Below, piece by piece: positions 41,536-58,019 of a stretch of DNA of 64,000 bases; within the stretch, counting starts at the first letter, position 1; every line of letters begins with the position of its first letter. A program made the position numbers and the translations under genes. Origin of the DNA: Campylobacteraceae bacterium. GTDB taxonomy: Bacteria; Campylobacterota; Campylobacteria; Campylobacterales; Sulfurovaceae. The stretch covers positions 62,001-126,000 of the forward strand of contig JALXFN010000074.1 in NCBI GenBank assembly GCA_027068975.1. Direction: 5' to 3'. The notes under the pieces are model-generated. The model ran no database searches, was not told the DNA's origin, and saw nothing but the letters and a program-made list of their open reading frames with translations.

Positions 41536-42284
41536 TACTTTTTTGTTTCTTCTTTTATAATATTCCAGTTTTCTTTATACTTTTCGATTCTATTAAGATT
41601 AATACGTTTACACTCTTCATTTGATAATTTATCTGCAAAACTCATGGGAATTATATAGCAAATCCCTACTTGTTTATCAACAGCTACATAAATATCACAA
41701 TCCTTACTAGTAATACGTTGACCAAGATTCGTTTCATGTTTATGATCGATCCCTTGTCCACCTCTATCTCGATCTTTAAAACTAATACTATTCCCAGTGC
41801 TAATTCCCTTAATCTGAACGCGTAATAATTTATTAGAGTAATCAATTATAGCATCATATCTACTACTTCGTACATCTACACTACTGCAATTGAATCCTGC
41901 TAATATAGCTCTTGCAACAAAAATAAATTCGGCACTATCCCCTGCATTGGCTGTCATAACACCCGATTCGATATTATTAATATTAACAGGAAAACCATTT
42001 GTCATAGCAATGTATAAAGATTTTTCAATAATATGTTTTAATTTTGTTTTAATAAATTGAAATTTTTTCTTTTTCTCATTAGGAATATTTTCTTCTATTC
42101 TTTGAAGATTCATTTCTGATAGTTCTTTTAAATTAATTTCTCTAGCAATATCTAAAAAAAATGTACGGTCATAAAATTTTTCTAAATCAGATTTTTTTAA
42201 TCCAAACTCATTAGCAATTTCTTTTATTTTACTCTTTTTATATTCCTTTTCAATTAATGCTTCAATGAGTTTTTGACTATTCAT
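41535..42284 (-). CDS. putative type II restriction endonuclease, PD-(D/E)XK-like
   Basis: A 249-residue protein. An N-terminal helical region has an HTH-like KIKEIANEFGLKKSDLEKFYD. Around residue 115-170, GDSAEFIFVARAILAGFNCSSVDVRSSRYDAIIDYSNK and LLRVQIKGIS give the spaced Glu, Asp and Q-x-K of a PD-(D/E)XK nuclease core (D-x9-12-QIK variant, as in intron-encoded and Holliday-type relatives). Its start overlaps the upstream C5-methyltransferase by 8 bases, the layout of a type II modification-restriction pair. It resembles no named enzyme I know, so the specificity is open. Confidence 0.6.
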   Translation of the reverse strand: MNSQKLIEALIEKEYKKSKIKEIANEFGLKKSDLEKFYDRTFFLDIAREINLKELSEMNLQRIEENIPNEKKKKFQFIKTKLKHIIEKSLYIAMTNGFPVNINNIESGVMTANAGDSAEFIFVARAILAGFNCSSVDVRSSRYDAIIDYSNKLLRVQIKGISTGNSISFKDRDRGGQGIDHKHETNLGQRITSKDCDIYVAVDKQVGICYIIPMSFADKLSNEECKRINLNRIEKYKENWNIIKEETKK

Positions 42285-43209
42285 TTATTGCCTTTTTAAG
42301 CTCTTTAGCAATAGCTTCAATCACAGGTACGGTTACAGAATTTCCTATTTGTTTATAGAGAGAAGAGTTAGCTAATTTTTCTGGGAAAGAAAATGTTTCA
42401 GGATATCCTTGAAATCGTGCACACTCTCTTGGCGTTAATTTACGTATATCTTTATCATCAATGACCAAAGGAACATTATGTCCACCTGTTCCCATATTTG
42501 CTGTTAGAGTGGGACAAAGTTTACTTTTATTTTCTCTAACATAAACGCGTCTCCATTGATAAAGTGTATCTTTGTGTTTCATTTCATCTTTTAATTGCTT
42601 ATAATATCGACTATTAGTGTAATAATATTTTTCTTCTGTCTCTGAATCAATAAAGTCAGTTACTTTCTTATTTAGTTTTTTGGGTTTTGGAAAATTAAAT
42701 TTTTCAGCAATTTTTTTATCTTTAAATGCAAGTATATAAATTCGTTCTCTATTTTGAGGAACATTTCCATATTCACATGAATTTAATACTTTATATTTAA
42801 GCGTATATCCTCGTTCTTCTAATTCATAAGTGATACGTTTAAAAGTTTTTCCTTTATCATGTCCTACAAGGTTTTTGACATTTTCTAAAAATATTACCTT
42901 AGGACTTAAATCATCAACAAATCTTAAAATTTCAAAGAATACATTTCCTCTATCATCACGAAAACCTTTCTGATGTCCTGCAATTGAAAAAGCTTGGCAG
43001 GGAAAACCAGCAGTTAAAATGTCAACTTTTTCAACTTCTGATGTCTGTAAATCTTTTAAATCTTTTTCAAAAAGTGTATGTTTGTGGTTATGTCTATATG
43101 TTATACAAGCATTTTTATCTATTTCATTTGCCCATGAAATTTCGAAACCAGCTTTTTTAAAACCAAGTTCGACTCCACCAATTCCTGCAAATAATCCACC
43201 TACTTTCAT
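42277..43209 (-). CDS. DNA (cytosine-5) methyltransferase, type II
   Basis: A 310-residue C5-methylase. Motif I GLFAGIGGVELGFKKAGF, motif IV GFPCQAFSIAG (catalytic Cys), motif VI ENVKNLVGH, motif VIII QNRERIYIL, then a target recognition region of about 80 residues, motif IX RKLTPRECARFQGYP and motif X GNSVTVPVIEAI. The start is placed at MKVGGLFAG since GAGGAG lies 5 bases before it; ATG codons at 43212 and 43242 are possible. The target sequence cannot be read from this. Paired with the downstream PD-(D/E)XK-like gene. Confidence 0.95.
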   Translation of the reverse strand: MKVGGLFAGIGGVELGFKKAGFEISWANEIDKNACITYRHNHKHTLFEKDLKDLQTSEVEKVDILTAGFPCQAFSIAGHQKGFRDDRGNVFFEILRFVDDLSPKVIFLENVKNLVGHDKGKTFKRITYELEERGYTLKYKVLNSCEYGNVPQNRERIYILAFKDKKIAEKFNFPKPKKLNKKVTDFIDSETEEKYYYTNSRYYKQLKDEMKHKDTLYQWRRVYVRENKSKLCPTLTANMGTGGHNVPLVIDDKDIRKLTPRECARFQGYPETFSFPEKLANSSLYKQIGNSVTVPVIEAIAKELKKAINE

Positions 43210-43324
43210 CATGACTCCTCTTATTTTATTTTTATTATACAAAGAAATTAATTAGAATGACTCTTTTTATTTCAAATTGTCATATTTTAACCAAGGTAAG
43301 AGCTTCGCAACATCCAATATAAAG

Positions 43325-46300
43325 CTACACATTCAACCCAATAATCTCAAAACGATTATTGACTTGACGCATAAATTTATAATATTTTATCTCATCAGGT
43401 TTAGCGTAAACTGGTTCAGGAGTCACGAAAACAATCCTAAAGCCACGGCTGTTAGCAAAGTGACGTAGTAGGTCTTGGTTATGACTATGAAGGCGTGAAA
43501 CTTCGTCGAGAATAAGGAAAAAGGTTGATTTTTTCTCTTGGGTATAGAGTCCCAAAATAGAGACAGCCAGTGCCATTTTAAGTAAAATTGTTCCTCCTGT
43601 GGAGCTTTCATTTTTTATCTGTGTGACATTAGATTTTGTGGTTCCGTTTTCGGTAAACTCTAAACTCAAATCAATGGTATCAAGCAGAGTAATGGCTCCC
43701 CCTTTTAATGTACTTTTTATCTCTGAGAGTAGGTTGGCAACTTTTTGTAAATCTTGGTTGGTTTGAGGTTTGTCAAAAAAGAGTGAGTCACTCTGGTTGG
43801 TAATGCTTAGGTTTTGTACCAGCTTATTCATCTCTGCGAGTAGGGTCATGATACTTCTTTGGTTACCGACTTCACTCTTTATTTTAATGTCCCGTACAAT
43901 CGAAAAGTCGATGGTAGAGAGGTTTTTGTTGATTTTACGAACCTGCTCTTGGAATCTATCTTCTGAGTGAGAGAGACTTCCCAGTTTGGAAGGAATTTCA
44001 CTCTTCATAAAGTTAAAATACTTCTCATTGGTGGTGCGTTTAAGAGGTTCAAACTGCTTCTCTTTGAAGTCTCGTAACTCTTGGAGTTGTTCCAGAGTCT
44101 CTAGGTCCTCTGAAAGCAGTTCAAACTTGCTAAAGTTCTCTACCTTAAAGCTTATCTCTTTAATAGAATTATTTTTGAGGATGTTGAGTTGACTTGCTAT
44201 CTCTTTCAGGTCAGTCTTGGCTCCCTTGTAGTCTCGTTTTAGCTCTTGATAGGTACCAATAAGCATAGCCAAATAAACTTGGGTCTCCTCTTGTTCCTCC
44301 ATAGGGGTCTCAAAGTTAAGGTTTTGGACTTTCTTTAGCCCCTCTTCGAGTTGAGCCATCTCTTCTTTAATCTTTTTTATAGCCTCTTGGGTACTGTTAA
44401 ACTCTTTAACAATGCTCTGCTCTTTAAAGAGGAGTTGACGCTCTAGGTTTTCACGGGTTTGACCTGCCATGCGTAGACGACTTGTTTTTCGTGAGAGACT
44501 CTCCATAAACTCACGACGTTTTTCATACTCCTCTAGGTAGTATTTGGCATCTTGACTCTTTTGTAGTTTTTTCTTAAGCTTCTCTATACTGCTTTTTAAC
44601 TCTCCGACAAGCTCCTCTTTTGAGAACTTTTTACGGTTCTCTTTTCGCTCTTTTATCTGCTTGTCTAGTCTCTCTTGCTCTTTGTGAAGCCATTTTTTAA
44701 GACTCTTTTTTTCTACTTTTTCACTCTCTTCTAGGCTCTTTTGGTAGGCTTTAAACTGCTCTTGTTGAGTTTTTATAAAGGTGTCAAACTCTTTTTTTAA
44801 TACCTTTATCTGCTCTTTTTTCTCTTGGATGTCCTTTTCTATCTGTCCAATCTTTTGGGTAATGCTTTCTAGTTTTTTACGCTTCTCTAGCTCCAGCTCT
44901 TTCTCGTACTCAGGGGTAGCGATGCTGTTAATATGGGTAATCTTTTGACGACACTCCTCAATATTTTTCTCTATGGCTTTAAGTTGCTCTTGTGCTTGTT
45001 GCTCTTTATGGTTAAGTCGTTCTAGTTCCTGAGACTCTTGTGCATAAAGAGCCTGTTTCTCCTCTTTATGCAGTTGGTGTAAGTGGGCTTTTTTTAATCG
45101 TGCTTCACGAATAGTCTCTTCAGCTTCCTCTTGGGTAGGGATGCTTTTAAGGGTTGAGTTATCTAGTTTGATGCCCAGTGGCATCTCGGTATTGGTCACT
45201 TCAGGTTTGAGCTGTTCGGTGGGCATGGAGAGTAGGGAACTGTCCATAAACGGGTAAAGCTCCTTCTCCCATGAAAGACCACTCTGCTGTAAAAACTCTT
45301 TAAAGGAACCCTTTTGAGTCTCTAAAATACTCTTTTGTGTTGCAATGGTTTGGTTGAGGTGTTGACGCTCTTTCCATAAGCTTTGGGTTAGGCTTTTGTG
45401 TTGCTGTTGGGTCTGTTTTTTCTGTTGCTCTTTTTGGTATGTTATCTCTTTTAACTCTTTTTTAAGACTGCGTTCCTGCTCTTCTTGCTCCTCAATCTTT
45501 GATTGATAGGACTTTTTGAGTTTAAACTGCTTCTCTAAAAAGAGGTTGAGCTTTTCTCGGTAGAGTTGATGTAGCTCATTGGCTTGATCTTTTTGCTCTT
45601 CAAGCTCCTGTTCATAAGCATCTATGGCAATCTTAATCGTTGCTATCTCCCCCTCCATACGGTGTTGCGTATGCTCTTTTTCGTTACGTTGCTCCTCTTT
45701 TTTTTGGGCGAGAAGTTCTAGTGTTTGTGCTTTTAGTTGCTCTTTTTTGAGCTGTTTTTCCCGTGGTAAGTCATGGTCACGTCGTGAACTAAGTTCTAAA
45801 ATCTCTTGGTCAATGGTATTCAGAGCATTAAGAACATCAGCTTCGAGTAGGGTGAGCTGTTGCTGTTTTAGTAGAAGTTCCTTCTCTAAAAATGGGAGTT
45901 TCAAAAACTGTTGCTGTTGCTCTTTGTAGTGTTGGGGAGCAAATTTTACCTTTAACTCCTCTATATCTTTTATCTCTTTCTCTAGGGTAGCTATCTCTTT
46001 AGCAAAGCGTTCACGCATACGGTTTAGAGACTTCTCTTTTTGAGATTTTTTTACTTGATGCTCTTGGGCTTGTCGGTTAAGTCGTTCAAGTCGCTCTCTT
46101 TTTTCAAAAAGAAGTGGCTCTTCAATGCCCTTTCTGTAAGTGATTTGGGATTGAACGCTTTTTAGTTGCTTCTCTAGGTTAAGGAGTTGCTCTTGTAGGC
46201 TAAAGGCTCTCTCTATACGTTTATGCTCTTTTTCAAACTTACGAAAAAAGAGGTAGCTCTCTTGAAAGCTCTTTATCTCATCCATATATTTCTGATAGTC

Positions 46301-46903
46301 AAACTCAATGTTCTTCTCTTCCATGTTGAGCGACTTCTGAATGGCACGTTTAATACTGTTGGCATCGACAATCGATTTGTCTACATTAAAGGTCTGGTTA
46401 AATAGCTCCACAAAGACGTTGTAGTTTTTAATGTTGGTGATTTTAAAGTCAAGGTATTGACGGTTTTGACCATAGATAATCTCACGGTAACCACTGCTCT
46501 TCGAGAGGTGGGTGAGTGGAGCATCTTTTAGGTACTCCTGTATGGTTTTAAAGGGGTGAAGGGTTCCATTGTCTTGGACTATCTGCTCAATCTCAAAAGC
46601 TTTTTTAGAAAAGCGTTTAAATATCTCTCCATTTTGTTTGTACATAAAGATAAAAAAGTCATCAAAAACATAGACAATAAAGGAGTTTCGCTCATCGGGA
46701 AAGTAGTACTCTTTAAAGCTCTTTTTATCGCTACTGATTCCCAGCTTTCTACTGTTATTGTCTCCTGAAAAGAGGTAAAAAAGAGCAATAATCGTACTGG
46801 TCTTTCCTGTTCCATTGTCTCCTGCAAAAAAGATATCTTTGCTAAGGTCTATTCGGGCATAGTCAAACTCGGCTGAGTTTATTAGAATCATCTCTTTTAA
46901 CAT
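43325..46903 (-). CDS. MukB/MksB/JetC-like SMC ATPase
   Basis: A 1192-residue SMC-type protein. The N-terminal head has INSAEFDYARIDL and Walker A AGDNGTGKTSTI. Residues about 220-950 are almost entirely Glu/Lys/Gln/Leu coiled coil, with a non-coiled hinge-like part near 540-590 (SGLSWEKELYPFMDSSLLSMP). The C-terminal head has the ABC signature region ESSTGGTILLKMALA and Walker B FFLILDEVSRL. Together with two small upstream genes it forms a MukBEF/MksBEF/JetABC-type condensin. It ends 116 bases before the methyltransferase start. Confidence 0.85.
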   Translation of the reverse strand: MLKEMILINSAEFDYARIDLSKDIFFAGDNGTGKTSTIIALFYLFSGDNNSRKLGISSDKKSFKEYYFPDERNSFIVYVFDDFFIFMYKQNGEIFKRFSKKAFEIEQIVQDNGTLHPFKTIQEYLKDAPLTHLSKSSGYREIIYGQNRQYLDFKITNIKNYNVFVELFNQTFNVDKSIVDANSIKRAIQKSLNMEEKNIEFDYQKYMDEIKSFQESYLFFRKFEKEHKRIERAFSLQEQLLNLEKQLKSVQSQITYRKGIEEPLLFEKRERLERLNRQAQEHQVKKSQKEKSLNRMRERFAKEIATLEKEIKDIEELKVKFAPQHYKEQQQQFLKLPFLEKELLLKQQQLTLLEADVLNALNTIDQEILELSSRRDHDLPREKQLKKEQLKAQTLELLAQKKEEQRNEKEHTQHRMEGEIATIKIAIDAYEQELEEQKDQANELHQLYREKLNLFLEKQFKLKKSYQSKIEEQEEQERSLKKELKEITYQKEQQKKQTQQQHKSLTQSLWKERQHLNQTIATQKSILETQKGSFKEFLQQSGLSWEKELYPFMDSSLLSMPTEQLKPEVTNTEMPLGIKLDNSTLKSIPTQEEAEETIREARLKKAHLHQLHKEEKQALYAQESQELERLNHKEQQAQEQLKAIEKNIEECRQKITHINSIATPEYEKELELEKRKKLESITQKIGQIEKDIQEKKEQIKVLKKEFDTFIKTQQEQFKAYQKSLEESEKVEKKSLKKWLHKEQERLDKQIKERKENRKKFSKEELVGELKSSIEKLKKKLQKSQDAKYYLEEYEKRREFMESLSRKTSRLRMAGQTRENLERQLLFKEQSIVKEFNSTQEAIKKIKEEMAQLEEGLKKVQNLNFETPMEEQEETQVYLAMLIGTYQELKRDYKGAKTDLKEIASQLNILKNNSIKEISFKVENFSKFELLSEDLETLEQLQELRDFKEKQFEPLKRTTNEKYFNFMKSEIPSKLGSLSHSEDRFQEQVRKINKNLSTIDFSIVRDIKIKSEVGNQRSIMTLLAEMNKLVQNLSITNQSDSLFFDKPQTNQDLQKVANLLSEIKSTLKGGAITLLDTIDLSLEFTENGTTKSNVTQIKNESSTGGTILLKMALAVSILGLYTQEKKSTFFLILDEVSRLHSHNQDLLRHFANSRGFRIVFVTPEPVYAKPDEIKYYKFMRQVNNRFEIIGLNV

Positions 46904-46906
46904 CGC

Positions 46907-47434
46907 TTATACCATGCTTTCTAAGTAAGATAGATAGTAGTCTAAACTGTTGAGAATAAGGTAGCTGTCTTTGTCATTTTTGTCAATTTTTTCGATAAGG
47001 TTCTCCTGTAGTAGCCGTTTAAAAAACTGTTCGGTACTCTCTTTTTGGTCACGCTCTTTAAAAAGATATGCCCACTTCTCTTGTAGGTGTTCATCTTGTT
47101 TGTTCTCAAAGGCTGTCACAAACTCGGTATAGCGAATGCTACTCCCCGTTCGAGCGTGGGGGAGCAGATGTTTTAAAATAGAAATCATCATAAAAACATC
47201 TTTATGCCCTTGAACAAACTGCTCTATCTTTTCACTGCTGAGGGCATCGGACTGTGAGAGGTAGAAGTAGCCATTTTCTCCATTGAGTTCGTACCCCAAC
47301 TCTTGGAGCAGGTTCTCATAAGCGATGTAGTTCTCTTCATTGAGTAAAAAGTTGGCTATCTCGCCATATTTGGCAGAGTTTCGAGAGATAATTATCCCTT
47401 TCATCATGGTCTGAAATGCTGTTGCTATGTCCAT
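46907..47434 (-). CDS. MukE/MksE/JetB-like KITE subunit
   Basis: A 175-residue winged-helix-like protein. MKGIIISRNSAKYGEIANFLL, GYFYLSQSDAL, MMISILKHLLPHA, RYTEFVTAF and FFKRLLQENLIEKIDKNDKDSYLILN resemble the DUF4194/MukE class, two winged helices that bind the kleisin. It lies between the kleisin-like gene (10-base overlap) and the SMC gene (3-base gap), which fixes it as a subunit of that complex. Confidence 0.75.
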   Translation of the reverse strand: MDIATAFQTMMKGIIISRNSAKYGEIANFLLNEENYIAYENLLQELGYELNGENGYFYLSQSDALSSEKIEQFVQGHKDVFMMISILKHLLPHARTGSSIRYTEFVTAFENKQDEHLQEKWAYLFKERDQKESTEQFFKRLLQENLIEKIDKNDKDSYLILNSLDYYLSYLESMV

Positions 47435-48537
47435 TGGGCAATCCTTATGTCGTGGTCGTTGTAGTGGTGGCTAAGGGTCACATGAGGGTTAGGAGGAATG
47501 ACAAACTGCAAGTAGACTTTAAAGCTCTCCTCTTTAAGTGAACCCCCATCACTTGACTCCTCTATAAATCGTCGTAGTTCCTCATGTTGGTAAATGTAAG
47601 TAAAGATATCGTTGCTCCCCTCTGCTTTAAGTCCATCTTCGATGAGTTTGAGGTTGACCAGTTTGAGTTGCTCCTCTTTTTGCGTCTGTAGAGTAAATGT
47701 TTTTGGCTCTTTTTTTACCTTTACATTATAGAGGTGTTGTCGAAGTTTTCTAATAATCTTACTACTCTCCGAGCCATCAGGAAAGGTTTTTATCTGACTC
47801 TTTTGGCTACGATGAAGGGTGAGGTAGGCATGTTTAGTGTTGAGCTTTAGCTCCTCTTCCAAGGCTTGGTCTTTCTCTTCTAAAATCTGTGAAGCGAGTT
47901 GATGAAGCTGTCGGTTCTGAAGCCGAAGTTTTCGGGTACGCACAATAAAATCTTTGAGACGTTCTAAACTGACAGAGATGTTCTCAATAAAGGTCGCCAT
48001 CTCATCCGAGATACCCTCTATAAAGCTCTTTGTTTTAGGGTGTAAAGTAAAAAGCTCACCATAAAAGACTTCACGTATTTTATTGTTGGCAAGGTTAAGC
48101 TCTTCTATTTTTTCCAAAATATCCATCGCTTTTTCTATGAGTAGGTCAAGCTCTAGGGCATTTTCGTTCTCTACTTTAATGAGTAGAGTACGAATCTCTT
48201 GGTCACGTTGATTGAGTTTGAGGAAAATACTCTTGAGCAGGGCTAAAATCTCATCGAGATAGTAGGCTTTATGCTCTTGAAGGTAGCGAGATTTCTGTTT
48301 GAGTAGCTCTTGAAGTTCAGCATCATAGGTGTTAAAAATCACTCCATAATCAATACGCCGTAAAGTGACATCTACAAAGTGCCGATAGCTCTGAGCGAGT
48401 TCAGTTCTCTCTCCAATCTTCACCACCAAGCGTGAAGTAGCCAGTGCATCGGAAGCAGTATCTTTTTGATTTTTATAAATCTCATCAAGCTCTTGACGAT
48501 GCGTGTAGATAAATTCAATTAGTTCTATATGGGTCAT
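47425..48537 (-). CDS. MukF/MksF/JetA-like kleisin subunit
   Basis: A 370-residue, mostly helical protein. The N terminus (HIELIEFIYTHRQELDEIYKN) fits a winged-helix start; helical coils run to about 230 (MDILEKIEELNLANNKIREVFYGE, RKLRLQNRQLHQLASQILEE). A C-terminal part with IVIPPNPH-like strands (QFVIPPNPHVTLSHHYND) would contact the SMC head. First gene of the three-gene condensin operon. JetA of Wadjet is longer (about 480), so MksF-like is the better label. Confidence 0.7.
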   Translation of the reverse strand: MTHIELIEFIYTHRQELDEIYKNQKDTASDALATSRLVVKIGERTELAQSYRHFVDVTLRRIDYGVIFNTYDAELQELLKQKSRYLQEHKAYYLDEILALLKSIFLKLNQRDQEIRTLLIKVENENALELDLLIEKAMDILEKIEELNLANNKIREVFYGELFTLHPKTKSFIEGISDEMATFIENISVSLERLKDFIVRTRKLRLQNRQLHQLASQILEEKDQALEEELKLNTKHAYLTLHRSQKSQIKTFPDGSESSKIIRKLRQHLYNVKVKKEPKTFTLQTQKEEQLKLVNLKLIEDGLKAEGSNDIFTYIYQHEELRRFIEESSDGGSLKEESFKVYLQFVIPPNPHVTLSHHYNDHDIRIAQWT

Positions 48538-49251: not shown

Positions 49252-49785
49252 TTAAAACCCTCGAAGGGTTATCCCCAACCAAAGTGCCATTATACCAAGC
49301 ACAATATTAATAGGCAACAAAACTTTAGGAATCAAAGCTACAGAATCCTTTGCCTTAGCCAAATCACCAGCATCAAAAAGTTTTTGAGCTTTTCTTCTTT
49401 TGATATACATCCAAGTAAAGTTCATACTCATTAGCATCCAAATAACCTCTTTAACATGAACTATGTTGTAAATATGCATTGCAACTTCAGAGATAACATT
49501 TCCATCTACATCAACAGCAGCAGCTCTAAACCCAAGCCCCACAGCCATAATGACAGCTGTTAAAATGAGCAGTAAAATAAATGGAATTACCACATTAAAA
49601 AACTTACCAGTAATGGCAAGGGTACGTCCAAGTCTAACCTTTGGGTCTTCTATAAGTTGCAGGTTAGGGTGAACAGCTAGTCGAATGGCTATCATCCCTC
49701 CTACCCACACAAAGGCAGAGAGTACATGTAAAAACACTATCTCATGGGCATAATTTCCAAAAAGTTCAATCATGGTTTGTTTCAT
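49252..49785 (-). CDS. CopD/HemJ-like four-helix membrane protein
   Basis: A 177-residue protein with four helices. IVFLHVLSAFVWVGGMIAIRL, with a His in the first helix and Trp-Val-Gly-Gly after it, plus YNIVHVKEVIWMLMSMNFTWMYIKRRK with a second His, recall the CopD/HemJ-like families that may bind haem or copper. C-terminal helix LPINIVLGIMALWLGI. Its role is unknown. Same strand as maf, 77 bases upstream of it, with the hairpin element in between. Confidence 0.75.
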   Translation of the reverse strand: MKQTMIELFGNYAHEIVFLHVLSAFVWVGGMIAIRLAVHPNLQLIEDPKVRLGRTLAITGKFFNVVIPFILLLILTAVIMAVGLGFRAAAVDVDGNVISEVAMHIYNIVHVKEVIWMLMSMNFTWMYIKRRKAQKLFDAGDLAKAKDSVALIPKVLLPINIVLGIMALWLGITLRGF

Positions 49786-49828
49786 ACTAAATTAGTCCTA
49801 TTTATAATTTTTTAAGAATATAGCTAAT

Positions 49829-49978
49829 TTAGCTTAAGGTGAGTTTTATAGTTTGAGGAATAGATGCGATTTTAACACCCATTTTGTCTAACTCTTTTTT
49901 TGTAAACGATACCTTTAAATCTGCATCTAACATATCACTTACGGTTGATGCTATTGCTTTGTTTATTTTAGTTCTCAT
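49829..49978 (-). pseudogene. short ORF resembling the N terminus of an HTH antitoxin
   Basis: 49 codons: MRTKINKAIASTVSDMLDAD..., FTKKELDKMGVKI, ending QTIKLTLS. It begins one base from the stop of the gene above. It looks like the N-terminal part of an HTH-type antitoxin that lost its DNA-binding half, but this is a weak match from memory. It lies among other truncated accessory genes. Confidence 0.3.
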
Positions 49979-49979
49979 T

Positions 49980-50180
49980 TTAAGATTGAGATAACTCCTT
50001 TTTAATTTCTTTGATTTTTTCTATTTCTACATTTGTATATTGATGAATGATTGTTATGTCTACATTTAATTTTAACATCTGTTTCACAACAATTAATATA
50101 CCCTTTTCTATACCTCTATCAATTCCCTCTTTTATCCCATCTTGATAAAACGGTATCTTTTCAATATCTACTGTTAACAT
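49980..50180 (-). CDS. short protein, copy A of a duplicated MLTVDIEK family
   Basis: A 66-residue protein beginning [19 protein letters not shown], then Gly/Lys/Glu repeats (GIDRGIEKGI) and a helical C terminus. Its first 15 residues nearly equal those of the neighbouring gene at 50188-50373. Similar short proteins resemble the C-terminal tails of Rpn/PD-(D/E)XK transposase-like nucleases (inference). Real but of unknown function. Confidence 0.45.
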   Translation of the reverse strand: MLTVDIEKIPFYQDGIKEGIDRGIEKGILIVVKQMLKLNVDITIIHQYTNVEIEKIKEIKKELSQS

Positions 50181-50187
50181 AGTTTTT

Positions 50188-50373
50188 TTATGTAAGGTTC
50201 TTCATATACTCTAAAAGCTCTTCTTTTTTTATATTTAACTCTTTTACGATGTCATCAATAGAGAGCTTAAATTTTTCAATCATTATAATTGCACTTTCAA
50301 AGCGTTCTTCTGCTTTACCTTTTTCAACACCCATCTGATAAAATGGTGTTTTTTCTATATCTACAGTTAACAT
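50188..50373 (-). CDS. short protein, copy B of the MLTVDIEK family
   Basis: A 61-residue protein: [20 protein letters not shown] at the N terminus and [18 protein letters not shown] at the C terminus. The C-terminal part recurs at 57829-57896 as a pseudogene fragment, so this family has at least three traces in the window. Its start lies inside the 3' end of the upstream XRE gene in another frame. Confidence 0.5.
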
Positions 50374-50659
50374 GTTTATTCCTTTGTATCAACTGAACTC
50401 TAAGTTCACGCCCCATTATTTTAGCAAAGTTTTGAAGTGTAGAGAGCTTTATATCCTGTGCATGGTTTTCTATGCGTGATATGGCTGATTTTTTAGTATT
50501 GAGTTGTTCAGCTAACTCTTCTTGGGTAATCCCTGCTTCAAGTCGTGCTTGTTTTAGTTCTTCACCTATCTTAAACTCTACATAACCTTCATCAAATCCA
50601 TTTGCAAACTCTTTGTCTTGTTTTTTTCTTTTTTTGATGTATTTTTGTAAATCACTCAT
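50324..50659 (-). CDS. XRE-family HTH regulator, HigA-like antitoxin with altered C terminus
   Basis: A 111-residue protein with a Cro/C1 HTH at about 35-85 ([48 protein letters not shown]). RELRVQLI ends the usual antitoxin fold; the last 20 residues ([16 protein letters not shown]) are read out of frame through the start of the next gene, so the natural end is missing. Its start codon overlaps the stop of a toxin remnant. Probably an orphaned HigA of a HigBA module. Confidence 0.7.
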
Positions 50660-50717
50660 TATCTAGGTACTCCTTTCTTCTTTGCTGTGCCAATTCAATT
50701 TCAGGCTTTTTATTTTT
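50652..50717 (-). pseudogene. C-terminal remnant of a HigB/Gp49-like toxin
   Basis: 22 codons in frame before a TGA that overlaps the XRE start: [20 protein letters not shown]. This is the kind of Lys/Glu-rich helix that ends Gp49-like HigB toxins (PKKEIELAKKRKxEY). The frame is closed immediately upstream by TAA, so the rest of the toxin is gone. Confidence 0.5.
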
Positions 50718-50730
50718 TTAATAATAACAA

Positions 50731-50748
50731 GTTAACATTAACGTTAAC
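50731..50748. promoter_or_regulatory. triple GTTAAC operator-like repeat
   Basis: GTTAACATTAACGTTAAC: three hexamers, the outer two identical, with the palindrome TTAACGTTAA at its right half. It stands upstream of the XRE/toxin-remnant unit and of the divergent methyltransferase, where a -10-like TATACT occurs at 50774-50779. It is likely the old operator of the HigA-like repressor. Confidence 0.55.
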
Positions 50749-50800
50749 CTATAACCTCTCTAATAATTCATGCTATACTTTTAAAAAATGAGATTTCAAA

Positions 50801-51412
50801 ATGAACGATACATTATCATATTACGAAACAAACGCATCACAACTTGCTAAGCGTTATGAGTCAGCCAAAGTAGAAGCACTTCATACGTTACTAACAAATA
50901 CTTTTCCTAAAAACTCTAAACTCTTAGAGATAGGTTGTGGTTCAGGTCGTGATACTAAGTTTATGATGGAGAGAGGCTACCAAGTTACAGCGATAGATGG
51001 TTCAAAAGAGATGATAAACGAAGCAAAAAAGATACACCATACTCTTACTCCTTATCTTTTTGTCAAACAGCTCCCTTATGGGTTAGATTTTCAAGAAAAT
51101 TTATTTGATGGTGTCTATTCCATCGCTACACTTATGCATTTAACTAAAGAAGAGATATCTCAAACTATTAAAAATGTTCACACATTATTAAAAGAAAAAG
51201 GTAAATTTTTATTCTCTGTCTCCATTGAAAGAGATGATACCGACCAAAACAACAGAGACTCACATCAAAGACTCTTTACTTCATTTTCTCAAAGAGAGTG
51301 GGTTACTATTTGTAAAAACTACGGTTTAAATCATCTACATACCGAAGTTACAACAGACGGACTCAATAGAAGTGGTATTGTTTGGCTTACTTGTGTTGTT
51401 GAGAAAAGTTAA
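50801..51412 (+). CDS. class I SAM-dependent methyltransferase
   Basis: A 203-residue enzyme of the small Methyltransf_11/25 type. SKLLEIGCGSGRDTKFMMERGY is motif I, VTAIDGSKEMI motif II, and FDGVYSIATLMHLTKEE the region after motif III. The substrate is unknown. A decayed paralogue lies 6.7 kb away (57299-57751), across the HNH and helicase genes. It ends in a 4-base overlap with the convergent HNH gene. DNA, tRNA or small-molecule substrates are all possible. Confidence 0.85.
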   Translation: MNDTLSYYETNASQLAKRYESAKVEALHTLLTNTFPKNSKLLEIGCGSGRDTKFMMERGYQVTAIDGSKEMINEAKKIHHTLTPYLFVKQLPYGLDFQENLFDGVYSIATLMHLTKEEISQTIKNVHTLLKEKGKFLFSVSIERDDTDQNNRDSHQRLFTSFSQREWVTICKNYGLNHLHTEVTTDGLNRSGIVWLTCVVEKS

Positions 51413-52359
51413 GCTCTATTGCACTGTAAGTTTTCAATATTGACAATTTGAAACCCTGCTTTATAGCAGTTTTCATAATAATCAGTTATATCACTATTCC
51501 ACTTACTTAATGCTCTCTGCTCATTACGAATCACTATCTTCTCAATACAATCTTTAGGAGGTAAAGAATCACTTTTAATTAAATTACATTTACTACAAGA
51601 TTGAACAAGATTCCAAAGCTCATCTTCATAAATGTATGACCATGGTATAAAGTGGTCTATATGAACATCAGTATTTTCCAATTTTGTACCACAGTAGAAA
51701 CACTCTTCTTCCATCTCCATCAAAATTTTTCTAAACTTTGTTAGTGAGTTTCTTTTAGGGTCTTTCATAAGCTCTATTTTTGAAATCAATCTAGGTGTAA
51801 AATTGGTTTTTTCTAAAAATTTAGCCCACTCTAAGACCAATATTTTTGAAAGTGTTTCATTCTCTTTTTTAAAGAATTTTAATGCTTCATATTTTAAAAT
51901 AATCTTTTTTTCAGATGAGGATTTATAGGCTTTTCCATCTTTCGCTCGACTATAGAAGTGTTGATAAAATTCATTTTGTTCATCAGGTTGAAAACGAGGT
52001 ATTACATTGTCAAAACACTTTTTTTCTATTTCCCGAATAAGTGTTTCTTGTAACTCTTGTCTATTTTTAAAATATTTTTCATACGAATCAGCAATATATT
52101 CCGTCCCACAATGCTCTTGAATAATACGAATAACTACAGGCATTTTATCTTTATTAAAATCTTGTTTAAATTTATATTTACACTCTTGAAACCAATAGTA
52201 TTCTAAAAACTTTGTAGCTATTTCATAAAAGCTTATTTCATAGTCTTCTTCTTTGAGGTTTTGAGTTTTAGAATAGTCTAAAAGAAACTTAGCTAAAGCA
52301 AATTTATAGGTATTGCTTTTTGCTCCTTTTGATACTATGCTAACAAATAAATGTTTCAT
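51409..52359 (-). CDS. HNH endonuclease
   Basis: A 316-residue protein. The last third is an HNH domain with a zinc knuckle: ECFYCGTKL (CxxC), VHIDHFIPWSYI (the His-x-Asp-His catalytic core), ELWNLVQSCSKCNLIKSD (Asn, second CxxC, and final His/Lys region). The first 200 residues are helical, charged and unlike anything I know (MKHLFVSIVSKGAKSNTYKF, FYEIATKFLEYYWFQECKYK). It lies 53 bases downstream of the helicase gene on the same strand, presumably co-transcribed. Together they suggest a DNA-targeting defence function (inference). Confidence 0.85.
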   Translation of the reverse strand: MKHLFVSIVSKGAKSNTYKFALAKFLLDYSKTQNLKEEDYEISFYEIATKFLEYYWFQECKYKFKQDFNKDKMPVVIRIIQEHCGTEYIADSYEKYFKNRQELQETLIREIEKKCFDNVIPRFQPDEQNEFYQHFYSRAKDGKAYKSSSEKKIILKYEALKFFKKENETLSKILVLEWAKFLEKTNFTPRLISKIELMKDPKRNSLTKFRKILMEMEEECFYCGTKLENTDVHIDHFIPWSYIYEDELWNLVQSCSKCNLIKSDSLPPKDCIEKIVIRNEQRALSKWNSDITDYYENCYKAGFQIVNIENLQCNRA

Positions 52360-52412
52360 AAATATATACCTTTTTCATTTTAATACTTGATTGTTGATTG
52401 TATCTAATTTTA

Positions 52413-55400
52413 TTAATTCTTCTTCAAAACAACTTTACATAAAGGATGATAATTCTCCTCACTCTTTTCCTTATTATACCATTGCACAACAAACTCAACT
52501 GATATTTTATGAAAGTAAAAATTCTTACTTAGATAAACTTGTACTTTTTCATGAAATGACTTTGACAAGAAACCTATAACTCTGTTTTTGTAAACAATAC
52601 AAAAAGCTTTACTTTTCCCTCTCATCTCAAAATTTACATTCTCTCCTGCTAAAGCAATATTTGAATTATTATGAAATCCAAGTTGTATATCTTTTAATCC
52701 CATAATTAATGTTACCAACTTTTCATTTTGAAAATACTCTTTATCATCAAAAATATATTGGGCATATCCATCTTTATTGAGACGATGAATACCATGTCTT
52801 AAAATAGTCAACTCACTTTTAGCACGTGTCATTCCTACATAATAGAGGCGAATATCGCTATCTTCTTTAGGTGTTTGATTTACAAGTAGAATAACATTCT
52901 CAAACTCCATACCTTTAGATTTGTGTATGGTTGATACAGTTACTGTTTTATGGTACTCTTCAAACTCTTCTAATTTAATTTCATCAAGATAAGCTAACCA
53001 CTGAGAAACATAATAATTCTGACTCTCCAATAAAAATCTATCAATCACTTTTTGCAAAAGTATTAAATTTTTAGAACCTTTAAATCTATTTTCTATAATT
53101 CTCCATGCCTGTTCAAAATTCTCTTCAGTATAAAAAGTATCATGTTTCAATAAGCCATTAATTGTTTTATCAAACTCTATGATTTCAATAACATTTTTAA
53201 GTGCAAAATTTTCTCTTTCTAAGATATATTTAGCTCCTATACCAAGTGTATCTAACTGAGAATAGAGTTGCATAACCTCATCATTTGTATAGGCTAGTAT
53301 TGCAATATTTTTATACTCATCATACTTTTGTACTTTTTGTATAGCTGGGGTAATAAGATTTTTAGAACTACAAGTCTGTACTAAAACTGTACCTTTATCT
53401 TCTGAGTGAGCATGTAAATTATCTTTTTTATATCTATTAGATACTCGTTCTATAAACTCATTAGAATATTTTACTATGTTTTGTTTACTTCTAAAATTTG
53501 TAAGTAACTCATACTGTCTATAGAGGTCTTGCCCATCATCTTCATCTTTTCCAAACTCTTCTGAAAATTTATCTATGAATTTTACATCAGCTCCTGCATG
53601 GGTCATAATACACTGGTCATCATCACCAACAGCAATAATTCTCATCTCTTGATTATTTGCATTATAAATAGCTTTTACAAGTTCAAAACTATCTTCGTTA
53701 ATATCTTGAAACTCATCTAAAACTAAAACCCTCTTATAGGGTAAATGAACATCTCCTTCATTTATCTGTTTTGTTGCTTCAACAATAGACTCTTTCAAAA
53801 TATCTTCATCCTCTTTTACTACTCGTGCAATAAGTTTTAGAGCGTATGAATGAAAGGTATTTATTTCAATATCATAAGAGAGTACACCAATAAGCTGATT
53901 GAGCCTAGACTTAAATTCTCCTGCTGCAGTTCGTGAAAAAGTTAACATCATAAATTGTTCAGGTTTTATATCTTCAGTTAAGATAAGAGAAGCTATTTTG
54001 TGTACCAACACCTTAGTTTTACCAGAGCCTGGACCTGCAAGTATCATCATGGCTTTTGTTTTCTTATCATTTATAATCTCTTTTTGCTCCTCAGACATTT
54101 CAGAGAAAATTTTGTTATATCTTCGTTGTGTTATGGGTCGTGATATCTTCTCTTTTAAGAGGTTATATTTTTTCTTAAACTCTTTATAGGGCAATATAAA
54201 ATAATCTTTTAGAAACATCCCTGCCTTATAATCATCACTTTGTAAACGCTTTGCATACTCTCCCATAATGTGTATTGATTCTATTTTTACTTGGTAGTGT
54301 TTGGCTAATCTATGTTCATACTCTTTAGGTGTATATTTTCGTTTAACCTTTACTTTCTCTTCTTTAGTAATTTGCATTGGAGAGTAAGAGATAAAACGAC
54401 CACCTAACAGCTCTATTACTCTTAAATGGTGCATATATAAAAGTGCTTTATCTATCTCTTTGATTGTATAGTTTTGACCTATATGAGTTCGTAAATGGGT
54501 TAATGAAAAATCTACTTTTTTTTCTCTCTTTTTCTTCTCAAAATTTTCACCAAATAGTTTCAATATCTCATTAGAAATAGTATGTTTACGCCTAATAATA
54601 GTTTCTATTTTCTCTTTATCTATAATTTCAAAATACCATAAATCATTCTGCCTATTAATTCGTTTAAACAAAAACAGAGATTTATCTTTCCAACTGCGTA
54701 TAAGATTTTTAATTAATTCAGATTCATTTTTTTTAATTAAATCCTTTTGATGTAGATGTTCATTTAGCTCTTTAATCGTTATTTGTGATGCATTTGATGT
54801 CTCTAAAAAAGTTAATAGACTTGTTTCAATATTTTGAATGTCTGTAAATTTTTTCATCGATTTTTTTTGAATTAAAAGGCTTAAATCTTTACTCTCACCT
54901 AGCACCTCTATCTCTTTTAATTGCTGTATAGCTAAGGATATGTCTGATTTTTTATAACCTAATAAGTGTGCCAACTCATCTACTTGAACAGCTTTTACTT
55001 TTCCTTGCCCAAGAATAGTTTGTAAAACAAGAATGAGTATTTGCTTCTCTTCATCATTAAAATTTGACTTTTCTAAGAACTTATGCAATTTATCCATACT
55101 GTTTGTAGCAACGGAATCTGCAAAGAAATTTGTTTTGTTTCTTTTCCTAGAGATATACCCCTCTCTTTCCAATTCTAACAAAGCTGTTTTTATTTTTGTT
55201 GAATAATCAGCAGAGTCATCTTCTACATCCCAACCAGCTTCTAATGCTATCTCAAAAGATGTTTTGGTAATAATATCACCCTTAGTTTTCTTCAATACTC
55301 TAAAGATAGAGTTTATTTCACTGGCTGTAATTTTAGAACGATTCAACGATAGAAAGTGTTTATCTAAATCATTTTCATCATAAAGTATGGGACAAAAAGC

Positions 55401-57203
55401 ATTAAGTTTTTCATCTCTAGCACCTCTTCCTGCTTCTTGTGCATAACTCTCTAACGAGTCAGACATCTCATAGTGAATTACATTGGTAATATCAGGCTTA
55501 TCTACACCCATACCAAAAGCTGTAGTTGCTACAATAACATCAATCTCACTAAGTATATAATCTTTGAGAATTTTCATTTTCTCTTGAGACTCTATTTTAG
55601 AGTGAAAAGATTTTACATTTTTATCGGTATCCATAGATAACTGCTCTGCAATCTTATCGCAATCTTTTGTTGAAGAGGGAATGTAAACAAGTGTAGCACC
55701 ATCATGCTCCTTTATTAACTTTAAAAGTTCTATATATTTATTTTTACTTTCGGATGGAATAGACTTATAGTGTAAATTTTTTCTCTCTGGTGTAGCAATA
55801 TATTCAGATAGTTGAATATCTAAACCCTCTAAAAAATATATCTTAATATCATCAATAACACTTGGTTTAGCTGTTGCAGTAAAACAAGAGATAGGTATAT
55901 GGTCTTGAAAATTTTTAACCCTCAATAACTCTTTTACGTAGTCACAGATATAGTAATAGTCTTGCCTAAAGTCATTTCCCCATGTCGATAAACAGTGTGC
56001 TTCATCCACAACAAAACGCTCAATCAATCTATTTTTCAAAATATTAAAAATAGCATTAGAACGTAAAGACTCAGGAGCCAAATATAAAATATCAGCTTCT
56101 CCATTAATGACTTGCTCTATGGCTTCACTTCTCTCCAAAGGACTCATATATCCACTAATTGCCACAGCTTTATAATTGGCTACCTTTTCATTAAAACTTG
56201 TAATATGGTCTTTTATCAATGCTTGTAAAGGTGAGACAACAACTGTCAATGCTTTATATGATTTTGCTTTTATAATTGCAGGAAGCCAAAATGTAAATGT
56301 TTTTCCTCCTCCTGTTGGTAAAACAGCAAGAAAAGATTCATCCCTAAGCGATGCTTCTATAATATCTCGTTGAGTAATTTCTGTCTCCAAGAGTGTAGGA
56401 TTTAACTTTGGAAAAGGTCTAAAAGTTCCAAATCCAAATACCTCTTTAGAGAAGTTACTTAATTCATCTTTTACCTTATCTATATTAAAACACAACTTTT
56501 TTTGTATAGGAACAATGTTACTGTAAGTATGCAGTATCTTTGGTGGATGCGATTTTATTTCAATATGTGGTGTTAGCAAAGCAAGAATATAACCTAATTC
56601 CATAGGATTATCTCTAATCACCTCTAATAGATATTTTTCATCAACAATAACATCTTTATAAAGCTTTAAGATATTATTATAAAGATTCTCCTCTAAATAT
56701 TCAAATGTATGCATCTCTGACATATAAGCAAAAAAACCAGAAAAATATTTTTCATCTTTTAATAAAGAGTAAAAAATATTTTGAGTCATAGTATCTAAAT
56801 CTAAAAATCGTGCTTCTAACTGACTTAATAATCTAGCAGTGATTTTAGAGTCTTCTACAGGGTCATTTTTAAAATCATCTTCACCTTTATAGTTCTTTGG
56901 TAATGCGTGTACGGATTTTTCATTAAACAGTAGTAGTGAAAGAGGTAAAGTATCTATAATTTGATGTGCTTTAAGTGCATGGTAAAGTGTTGTATCTTTT
57001 AATATCTCTAAATCAAAATCTATAAAATTATGCCCACATATATATTTTGCTGAAGTACATAACATCATAAAGTTAGTAGTTTCTTTAATACCTGGAGTAT
57101 TATGCTCCATCTTCTTGTGAACCATACCAAGTTCATATATTTTCTTTGTATTTAGGCTAACTTCTATATCTAAAAAAATTATATTGTCATGATTCTTTTT
57201 CAT
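52413..57203 (-). CDS. DEDD exonuclease - RecQ helicase - UvrD helicase fusion
   Basis: A 1596-residue multidomain protein. Residues 5-135: DEDD-type 3'-5' exonuclease fold (FLDIE 10-14, CGHNFIDFD 56-64, DPVEDSK 114-120). Residues 265-610: RecQ-type superfamily 2 helicase (LPTGGGKT 295-302, DEAH 400-403, SCFTATAK 439-446, QEAGRGARD 589-597). Residues 610-1020: helical/winged-helix linkers. Residues 1030-1520: UvrD-type superfamily 1 helicase (AGPGSGKT 1056-1063, VLDEFQDIN, VGDDDQCI, TIHKSKGMEFENVIL, LYYVGMTRAKSEL). A unique C-terminal end of about 100 residues follows. All three catalytic parts look intact. Operon with the HNH nuclease. Defence or repair role unknown. Confidence 0.88.
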   Translation of the reverse strand: MKKNHDNIIFLDIEVSLNTKKIYELGMVHKKMEHNTPGIKETTNFMMLCTSAKYICGHNFIDFDLEILKDTTLYHALKAHQIIDTLPLSLLLFNEKSVHALPKNYKGEDDFKNDPVEDSKITARLLSQLEARFLDLDTMTQNIFYSLLKDEKYFSGFFAYMSEMHTFEYLEENLYNNILKLYKDVIVDEKYLLEVIRDNPMELGYILALLTPHIEIKSHPPKILHTYSNIVPIQKKLCFNIDKVKDELSNFSKEVFGFGTFRPFPKLNPTLLETEITQRDIIEASLRDESFLAVLPTGGGKTFTFWLPAIIKAKSYKALTVVVSPLQALIKDHITSFNEKVANYKAVAISGYMSPLERSEAIEQVINGEADILYLAPESLRSNAIFNILKNRLIERFVVDEAHCLSTWGNDFRQDYYYICDYVKELLRVKNFQDHIPISCFTATAKPSVIDDIKIYFLEGLDIQLSEYIATPERKNLHYKSIPSESKNKYIELLKLIKEHDGATLVYIPSSTKDCDKIAEQLSMDTDKNVKSFHSKIESQEKMKILKDYILSEIDVIVATTAFGMGVDKPDITNVIHYEMSDSLESYAQEAGRGARDEKLNAFCPILYDENDLDKHFLSLNRSKITASEINSIFRVLKKTKGDIITKTSFEIALEAGWDVEDDSADYSTKIKTALLELEREGYISRKRNKTNFFADSVATNSMDKLHKFLEKSNFNDEEKQILILVLQTILGQGKVKAVQVDELAHLLGYKKSDISLAIQQLKEIEVLGESKDLSLLIQKKSMKKFTDIQNIETSLLTFLETSNASQITIKELNEHLHQKDLIKKNESELIKNLIRSWKDKSLFLFKRINRQNDLWYFEIIDKEKIETIIRRKHTISNEILKLFGENFEKKKREKKVDFSLTHLRTHIGQNYTIKEIDKALLYMHHLRVIELLGGRFISYSPMQITKEEKVKVKRKYTPKEYEHRLAKHYQVKIESIHIMGEYAKRLQSDDYKAGMFLKDYFILPYKEFKKKYNLLKEKISRPITQRRYNKIFSEMSEEQKEIINDKKTKAMMILAGPGSGKTKVLVHKIASLILTEDIKPEQFMMLTFSRTAAGEFKSRLNQLIGVLSYDIEINTFHSYALKLIARVVKEDEDILKESIVEATKQINEGDVHLPYKRVLVLDEFQDINEDSFELVKAIYNANNQEMRIIAVGDDDQCIMTHAGADVKFIDKFSEEFGKDEDDGQDLYRQYELLTNFRSKQNIVKYSNEFIERVSNRYKKDNLHAHSEDKGTVLVQTCSSKNLITPAIQKVQKYDEYKNIAILAYTNDEVMQLYSQLDTLGIGAKYILERENFALKNVIEIIEFDKTINGLLKHDTFYTEENFEQAWRIIENRFKGSKNLILLQKVIDRFLLESQNYYVSQWLAYLDEIKLEEFEEYHKTVTVSTIHKSKGMEFENVILLVNQTPKEDSDIRLYYVGMTRAKSELTILRHGIHRLNKDGYAQYIFDDKEYFQNEKLVTLIMGLKDIQLGFHNNSNIALAGENVNFEMRGKSKAFCIVYKNRVIGFLSKSFHEKVQVYLSKNFYFHKISVEFVVQWYNKEKSEENYHPLCKVVLKKN

Positions 57204-57298
57204 TAATTTTATTGAGCCTAATATAAATTTTTAACTAAAGTATAGCCCTCACCATGTTAACTTAAGTTGAGAAAAAGAAAGATAATAAAAAATAGGTT

Positions 57299-57409
57299 TT
57301 AGAATTTACAATAAACATCACTCCACTCAATATCTCTCTTCAATCCATCAAAACTAAGTACTTCATCTGCAACTTTAAACCCACTATCTAAAAAAAAACT
57401 TGAGTGCTA
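57299..57409 (-). pseudogene. C-terminal fragment of a second methyltransferase
   Basis: An open stretch encodes HSSFFLDSGFKVADEVLSF then DGLKRDIEWSDVYCKF and stops at 57299. It lines up with the end of the intact methyltransferase at 50801 (NYGLNHLHTEVTTDGLNRSGIVWL). With the N-terminal fragment at 57506-57751 it represents one gene whose middle was lost; two hairpin elements now fill the break. The 302-base gap 57204-57505 has nothing else. Confidence 0.6.
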
Positions 57410-57471
57410 TCAACACATACACGTCAACCTAAGAAAAATATTTTTTGAAATACCTAAATTTAGGCTTTTCG

Positions 57472-57491
57472 TGTAGGGTCGGTTTACCGAC
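57472..57491 (+). repeat. GTAGG-type hairpin element
   Basis: GTAG then GGTCGGT-TT-ACCGACC (7-bp perfect arms) and TTAAAATAA. Twin of the copy at 17214-17232. It lies within the deletion gap of the decayed methyltransferase. Confidence 0.75.
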
Positions 57492-57505
57492 CTTAAAATA
57501 AGCAT

Positions 57506-57751
57506 TCATTTGAATTGTTGGTCGATAAATCGACAGGTTGACACTTCTATAGCATCCACTCCCCAACACTCTACACCTAAAGTTCTAATATATTTTAAAT
57601 CATGACCCGAACCAAAATCAATATCTAGGACTTTGTAAGATTTTTGGATGTATTTTTTTAAAAGTTTGTTGAGTTGTGGTAGGGTGGCAGAGTTGTATCG
57701 TTCTATTAATTCTTTGTAGTTTTGGTTGTAGTAGGTTTGGGTTTTATTCAT
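57506..57751 (-). pseudogene. N-terminal fragment of a SAM-dependent methyltransferase
   Basis: 81 codons. MNKTQTYYNQNYKELIERYN, YKVLDIDFGSGHDLKYIRTLG (motif I) and VECWGVDAIE (motif II) match the first half of the methyltransferase at 50801. After residue 69 the chain runs into a hairpin element (CRFIDQQFK is encoded by it at 57519-57534) and stops. It is the 5' part of a broken paralogue; the matching 3' end is at 57299-57409. Confidence 0.75.
57519..57534 (-). repeat. short hairpin inside the broken methyltransferase
   Basis: GTCGAT-AA-ATCGAC, 6-bp arms, with flanks TTG and AGG; on the minus strand CTGTCGATTTATCGACC. Related in size to the other hairpins although the GTAGG lead is degraded. 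It supplies the last codons of the truncated methyltransferase. Confidence 0.5.
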
Positions 57752-57828
57752 ATAGCTTTCTTCTCAGAATCCAAACCAGTCTATATATCTTGATAACTCT
57801 TTTTTGCAAATTGTTCATAAATATAAAT

Positions 57829-57896
57829 TTATGAATTTTTCTTCTGCATATACTCTAAAAGTTCTTCTTTTTTTAGATTTAATTCTTTTTTAGTAA
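57829..57896 (-). pseudogene. C-terminal fragment of the MLTVDIEK family
   Basis: [22 protein letters not shown] followed by a stop. It matches the end of the gene at 50188-50373 ([19 protein letters not shown]). The upstream side is cut off by a GTAGG hairpin element beginning at 57898. The 268-base gap 57752-58019 holds this fragment and two hairpins and nothing else. Confidence 0.6.
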
Positions 57897-57897
57897 T

Positions 57898-57923
57898 GGG
57901 TAGACACATTGGTCTACCCCTAC
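57898..57923 (-). repeat. GTAGG-type hairpin element (inverted)
   Basis: GGGTAGAC-ACATTG-GTCTACCC (8-bp arms) then CTAC; minus strand GTAGGGGTAGACCAATGTG. Compared with the copies at 38407 and 57965 the stem has a paired change (GCAGAC/GTCTGC to GTAGAC/GTCTAC), showing that pairing is conserved. Confidence 0.8.
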
Positions 57924-57964
57924 ATGTTGCATAGGTTAAAATCTCTTTCAAATCATACCGAACC

Positions 57965-57991
57965 GTAGGGGCAGACCGAGGTGTCTGCCCA
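57965..57991 (+). repeat. GTAGG-type hairpin element
   Basis: CCGTAGGGGCAGACCGAGGT, stem GGGCAGAC-CGAGGT-GTCTGCCC, then ACAG. Differs from the copy at 38407 only in the loop (CGATGT there). It lies 29 bases after the alaS stop. Confidence 0.8.
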
Positions 57992-58019
57992 CAGATTGGC
58001 ATAAATTAATATATTAGAT

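Follow-up and report, generated by a model that had tools for sequence, protein, structure and literature searches.

The subject of this analysis is a methyltransferase gene (MT), an HNH nuclease gene (HNH) and a large helicase gene (HEL), which lie side by side in a 64,000-nucleotide stretch (the window; contig C74, positions 62001–126000) of a 2.78-Mb Campylobacterota genome. At a rough probability of 0.55, the conserved unit is an MT–HNH pair belonging to defence neighbourhoods, with HEL as an independently mobile, optional companion or motor; the function assigned to the pair is suggested by its genomic settings. MT, not HEL, is the conserved partner of HNH. A first-pass annotation of the window had proposed HEL and HNH as a defence unit. 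Its observation is confirmed and its interpretation is partly supported: the HNH family does occur in defence neighbourhoods and the genes do sit on a lineage-specific insertion, whereas HEL and HNH do not hold together as a unit, being adjacent in three of 37 Campylobacterota HEL loci, the window included, and in four of about 105 HNH loci. The features concerned are listed below, in window coordinates.

49786–58019, no strand assigned: lineage-specific insertion between alaS and the gene at 49252–49785 (congener comparison and guanine plus cytosine (GC) content)
50801–51412, plus strand: MT (P0003), intact class I S-adenosylmethionine (SAM) methyltransferase of 203 residues, convergent with HNH and overlapping its 3' end by 4 bp
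51409–52359, minus strand: HNH nuclease (P0002), 316 residues; N-terminal domain of about 200 residues and Cas9/IscB-type HNH domain
52413–57203, minus strand: HEL (P0001), 1596 residues (open reading frame (ORF) call, Pfam, NCBIfam, family alignment); DEDD-type exonuclease (about 1–130), RecQ core (about 250–640), linker, UvrD-type helicase (about 1030–1470), C-terminal domain
57299–57406 (approximate limits), minus strand: C-terminal part of the MT' pseudogene, a frame 0 match
57506–57751, minus strand: N-terminal part of MT', 55% identical over 67 residues to the methyltransferase that overlaps HNH in genome G056 (locus L060)

The arrangement described by the first-pass annotation was thus recovered: a protein with an exonuclease and two helicases, followed after 53 bp and on the same minus strand by an HNH endonuclease, both ORFs agreeing with their Pfam domains, with an intact methyltransferase on one side and two fragments of a paralogue (MT') on the other.

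In P0002, the only part matching Pfam is a stretch of about 50 residues near the C-terminus (HNH_4, residues 220–267, 6.7e-10). Residues 1–200 match no Pfam family and no PDB fold, in keeping with the earlier failure to assign them. Within the HNH domain, D235-H236, N259 and K262 are invariant in the family and N250 is nearly so. The structure model (predicted local distance difference test (pLDDT) score 89) contains a Cas9-type HNH domain, with a Foldseek probability of up to 1.0; against PDB, no match reached E<0.001 and the matches listed are HNH proteins, mostly Cas9.

At least 516 relatives of HNH were confirmed across bacteria and archaea. They are 20–67% identical to P0002 over most of its length and are carried by plasmids and chromosomes of many phyla. 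Neighbours were tallied at 96 loci, as connected clusters and up to five genes away: 31 have a MazG-like pyrophosphohydrolase, in most cases immediately upstream, 14 have a member of the MT family, and about 10 have genes of dnd type. At the 95 loci other than the window, MT homologues (E<1e-10) account for 12 of the 185 ORFs flanking HNH, versus 2 of the 1342 other ORFs (Fisher odds ratio 46, p=5e-10, a value which overstates independence, because the loci are phylogenetically related). HEL is beside HNH in none of these 95.

Several of the settings are those of defence systems. At locus L105, HNH ends a dndB-C-D-E-A operon, recognized by PADLOC with values of 5e-128 for DndB, 2e-178 for DndC and 8e-239 for DndD (range over the five genes, 4e-17 to 8e-239). 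Other relatives adjoin BREX and type I-F CRISPR systems, accompany SspB/SspC, or stand beside an AAA ATPase and HNH pair or a type IV restriction helicase; one lies near a Piwi gene. As a separate observation, HNH relatives were also seen next to a Schlafen-group-3 helicase protein (PF09848); in Bacillota the neighbours were NUDIX and DUF3427 helicase genes (L132, L078, L236). A phage origin of the locus was considered and rejected, viral contigs holding only seven HNH relatives, mostly partial, and no HEL relative in a query limited to close relatives.

Within Campylobacterota, a single-sequence search of the phylum for HNH returned the window only, and a profile search added four more genomes; most of the phylum profile matches were other HNH proteins aligning in the C-terminal part only, and were left out of the counts. 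Combined with a profile search of the family, this yielded 12 loci. In nine of them (the window, two loci of G486, and G479, G179, G138, G056, G098 and G080) HNH has MT next to it or fused to it, and in two genomes the fusion forms a single ORF of 580/581 residues (G479 and the second locus of G486). As to the other three, MT is two genes away from a decayed HNH in G168, an MT remnant lies at the contig edge in G160, and G416 has no MT. Decayed MT–HNH copies were found at L251 and L252.

HEL adjoins HNH in the window and at both G486 loci, while in G479 only its C-terminal half, corresponding to P0001 residues 920–1595, is found; it is absent beside the other 8 of the 12. At the first G486 locus (L239), HEL, MT and HNH follow one another on one strand, one junction leaving a gap of 4 bp and the other overlapping by 8 bp; at the second (L240), the MT–HNH fusion is 342 bp from HEL, together with a type I restriction-modification system and a PrrC-like PDC-S06 protein (1e-265). 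The suggestion of a version that is "perhaps three-gene with the methyltransferase" is therefore borne out by recurrence in G486. Gene order is different in every case where HEL accompanies MT–HNH. In the HNH tree the window groups with Sulfurovum sp. AR (G138), near G056, and the G486 and G479 copies form a separate clade (100/100); because of this separation, HEL joined MT–HNH more than once. In the 397-genome phylum sample, intact HEL is present in two of the five HNH genomes (hypergeometric p=0.03), or in three of five if the G479 half is counted (p=0.002; halves were screened in HNH genomes only), and it is adjacent in all three. A binomial figure for adjacency presumes that genes are placed at random, and nothing here rests on it. 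Since HEL recurs with MT–HNH in a separate HNH lineage, yet is mostly found apart from it, the link is recurrent but optional. HEL and HNH as an obligate pair were rejected on the neighbour counts.

HEL itself is a patchy accessory gene, mostly solo. At family level it is carried by 17 of 175 genomes and at phylum level by 23 of 397; its carriers represent 16 of 68 genera, its sites are many, and it is not a single-copy core gene at a fixed position; decayed copies occur in G135 and G039. Its neighbours are mostly varied housekeeping genes, with metE/thiC-type surroundings recurring in three related genomes. HNH is beside HEL only in the window and at the two G486 loci among the 37 Campylobacterota HEL loci, some of which are on short contigs or decayed, so that neighbours could be missed. 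Full-length relatives occur on plasmids of Aliarcobacter, Bacteroides, Phocaeicola and cyanobacteria, and HNH was beside HEL in none of the seven plasmid HEL loci scanned. Most HEL carriers also have a canonical RecQ, on which ground a role of HEL as RecQ substitute was rejected; in the genome of the window no canonical RecQ was found above threshold and HEL is the sole match, most family genomes having RecQ. A DUF2779 protein is a second recurrent companion of HEL: in each of two families its gene extends over the start codon of HEL (L187:5368-6849 and L194:11483-12973; Pfam 5.8e-46 and 3.7e-45). In two further lineages, other genes for SAM-methyltransferases flank HEL, up- or downstream, at no more than about 13 bp (L201:11322-12080, L202:6057-6791 and L031-L033).

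Pfam matches in HEL cover the RecQ core (DEAD and Helicase_C, about 278–596) and the UvrD-type helicase (UvrD N/C, 1036–1467). All its motifs had been described as intact. This holds for both helicase motors, whose motifs are kept across the aligned family members, and for the acidic residues of the exonuclease, but not for exonuclease motif III, which in most of the family reads N-D-P-x-x-D, with Asn replacing the His of DEDDh or the Tyr of DEDDy enzymes. Exonuclease activity is uncertain, because Asn stands where DEDDh enzymes carry His; the region has no sequence match in PDB. HEL passes the NCBIfam RecQ-family cut-off (TIGR00614, 234.2 vs 219.8 bits), and is far under that of the bacterial RecQ equivalog (TIGR01389, 241 vs 640 bits). 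In WRN an exonuclease precedes the RecQ core, and HEL shares this order; it differs from RecQ/WRN proteins by the second, UvrD-type motor and by the Asn of motif III. To Gabija GajB and DpdF, HEL shows generic UvrD or RecQ helicase-core similarity, but no GajA is found by HEL, the genes next to it being HNH and MT', no dpd genes lie alongside it, and the DpdF equivalog cut-off is missed (192 vs 550 bits).

The MT of the window is 53% identical to the methyltransferase located 3 bp upstream of HNH in Sulfurovum sp. AR, and the MT tree, like the HNH tree, places the window with this genome. Both methyltransferase types of the window are HNH-partner types, because of the identity of MT' to the HNH-overlapping methyltransferase of G056; MT' may once have been an HNH partner, or may be what is left of a second module. 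Between the two MT' fragments lies a stretch of about 100 bp (57407–57505) with two palindromes (GGTCGGTTTACCGACC; another around TCGATAAATCGA); it is reminiscent of a small inserted repeat.

What MT might act upon bears on how the pair is read. P0003 has the glycine-rich SAM-binding residues, and the amino-methylase motif [DNS]PP[FYW] is absent from it and from its aligned relatives. The AlphaFold model (pLDDT 95) finds its best fold match in RPA2492 (3e23), followed by small-molecule methylases. For MT, a DNA base methylated through the usual amino-methylase chemistry is an improbable substrate, given the missing motif and closest folds that are small-molecule methylases. It is thus very improbable that the locus is a conventional restriction-modification system, in which MT would methylate DNA bases and HNH would cut unmethylated DNA. 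Such a reading would account for a methyltransferase adjoining an HNH nuclease and for the same HNH family ending Dnd modification operons, but MT lacks the motif and any extra target-recognition domain, and its Pfam and PDB folds are those of small-molecule-type class I methylases. Nor is MT–HNH likely to be a toxin-antitoxin or abortive-infection pair, in which HNH would be a DNase turned against the cell's own DNA and kept in check by MT or by the MazG-like enzyme. Tight pairing with fusions, the decayed copies and the plasmid settings would fit; HNH without MT in G416, and the modification module found instead with the Dnd-linked HNHs, would not.

The place of HEL can be read in two further ways. 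It is conceivable, though somewhat doubtful, that HEL has no link to MT–HNH, being an accessory helicase of DNA repair or replication which merely shares insertion hot spots with the pair: its neighbours are mostly housekeeping genes, the metE/thiC-type site looks vertically inherited, and the same architecture occurs without HNH on plasmids of several phyla. Against this stand the repeated adjacency to MT–HNH in separate HNH lineages, the patchy carriage with decayed copies, and the canonical RecQ already present in most carriers. Conversely, HEL, MT and HNH could act in Campylobacterota as a single defence machine that requires HEL as its motor, partial sets being decayed or alternative forms. 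The tight L239 arrangement, the L240 fusion near HEL in its type I restriction-modification/PrrC-like island, the G479 fusion beside a HEL half and the co-occurrence in HNH genomes speak for this. It is nonetheless quite unlikely, since HNH is missing beside 34 of the 37 Campylobacterota HEL loci (with the above limit on short or decayed ones) and the seven plasmid loci, HEL is missing beside 8 of the 12 Campylobacterota HNH loci and the 95 non-window loci, and gene order always differs.

An MT–HNH defence unit with optional HEL would work as follows. The HNH domain would nick or cut DNA, as its Cas9-type fold and invariant catalytic residues suggest, and the N-terminal domain may sense or license the target. 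MT may make a mark or metabolite which decides between self and non-self, or restrains the nuclease. Where HEL is present, it could unwind the DNA after cutting and perhaps trim it, boosting the system without being required, which is compatible with its recurrent, non-obligate adjacency. More tentatively, and with considerable doubt, the HNH family may represent an undescribed modular defence family, whose nuclease, bearing a novel N-terminal domain, pairs interchangeably with a methyltransferase of non-DNA type, with a MazG-like NTP pyrophosphohydrolase or with a phosphorothioation module, and for which Campylobacterota repeatedly recruit an exonuclease-RecQ-UvrD motor.

Several points weigh against the defence pair. 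Indications of a defence role come from genomic neighbourhoods, and these form a descriptive list. Many HNH loci have neither MT nor an obvious defence neighbour, and some archaeal ones are among core genes. The window MT is convergent with HNH, not operonic. The switch of partner between MT, MazG-like enzyme and Dnd has no demonstrated common chemistry, and the pair falls under no PADLOC or NCBIfam model. If the MT–HNH defence unit is real, a widespread bacterial and archaeal nuclease family with an unassigned N-terminal domain has no system model that could be found. Its exchangeable partners then pose the question of what a methyltransferase of small-molecule type, a MazG-like enzyme and a DNA-sulfur operon share that suits them to one nuclease. 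The finding also changes which genes belong together for cloning. In an incomplete coverage of the literature, no publication was found that describes an MT–HNH pair or assigns the RecQ–UvrD fusion to defence.

HNH nucleases are reported to occur in Dnd neighbourhoods (PMC10853773). Some P0002 relatives resemble the Dnd-linked nucleases (wHTH+SRA+HNH; DUF262-DUF1524 DndI/SspE) in being located in or beside a DNA-modification operon, as at L105, where HNH comes directly after dndBCDEA; the family differs from them in matching neither SRA, DUF262 nor DUF1524. The HNH proteins described in passages of PMC10853773 and PMC11662687 have domain layouts other than that of P0002. No dndBCDE or sspBCD genes were recognized among the neighbours in the window; elsewhere such genes do accompany HNH-family members. 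With Cas9 and IscB, P0002 has the HNH domain alone in common, matching that of Cas9 in sequence and fold, and it shows no RuvC match in Pfam. Similarity to Septu PtuB is weak and concerns the HNH domain (PADLOC 1.2e-7); the N-terminal domain does not match, and P0002 is adjoined by MT and HEL, not by a PtuA AAA ATPase.

The HEL/HNH/MT block is a lineage-specific insertion, because it is absent in 10 congeners and its genes are poorer in GC than their neighbours. In these congeners the homologue of the gene at 49252–49785 is about 50 bp from alaS, versus 8.2 kb in the window, as expected from the earlier placement of the block within an otherwise conserved region; GC content is 28–34% for HEL, HNH and MT and 38–42% for the neighbouring core genes. 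Each end of the insertion carries a short ORF (50188–50373 and 57829–58002), and the two share 15 bp of directly matching sequence (50203 / 57847) and, at the C-terminus, the motif KKEELLEYM. Their sequences suggest pieces of a single repeated gene family, possibly of Rpn-type nuclease/transposase kind, and not the toxin-antitoxin debris that had been suspected. Further off, at 41535–48537, PDDEXK_5 endonuclease and C5 methylase genes adjoin an SMC-type operon with weak similarity to JetC (2e-5).

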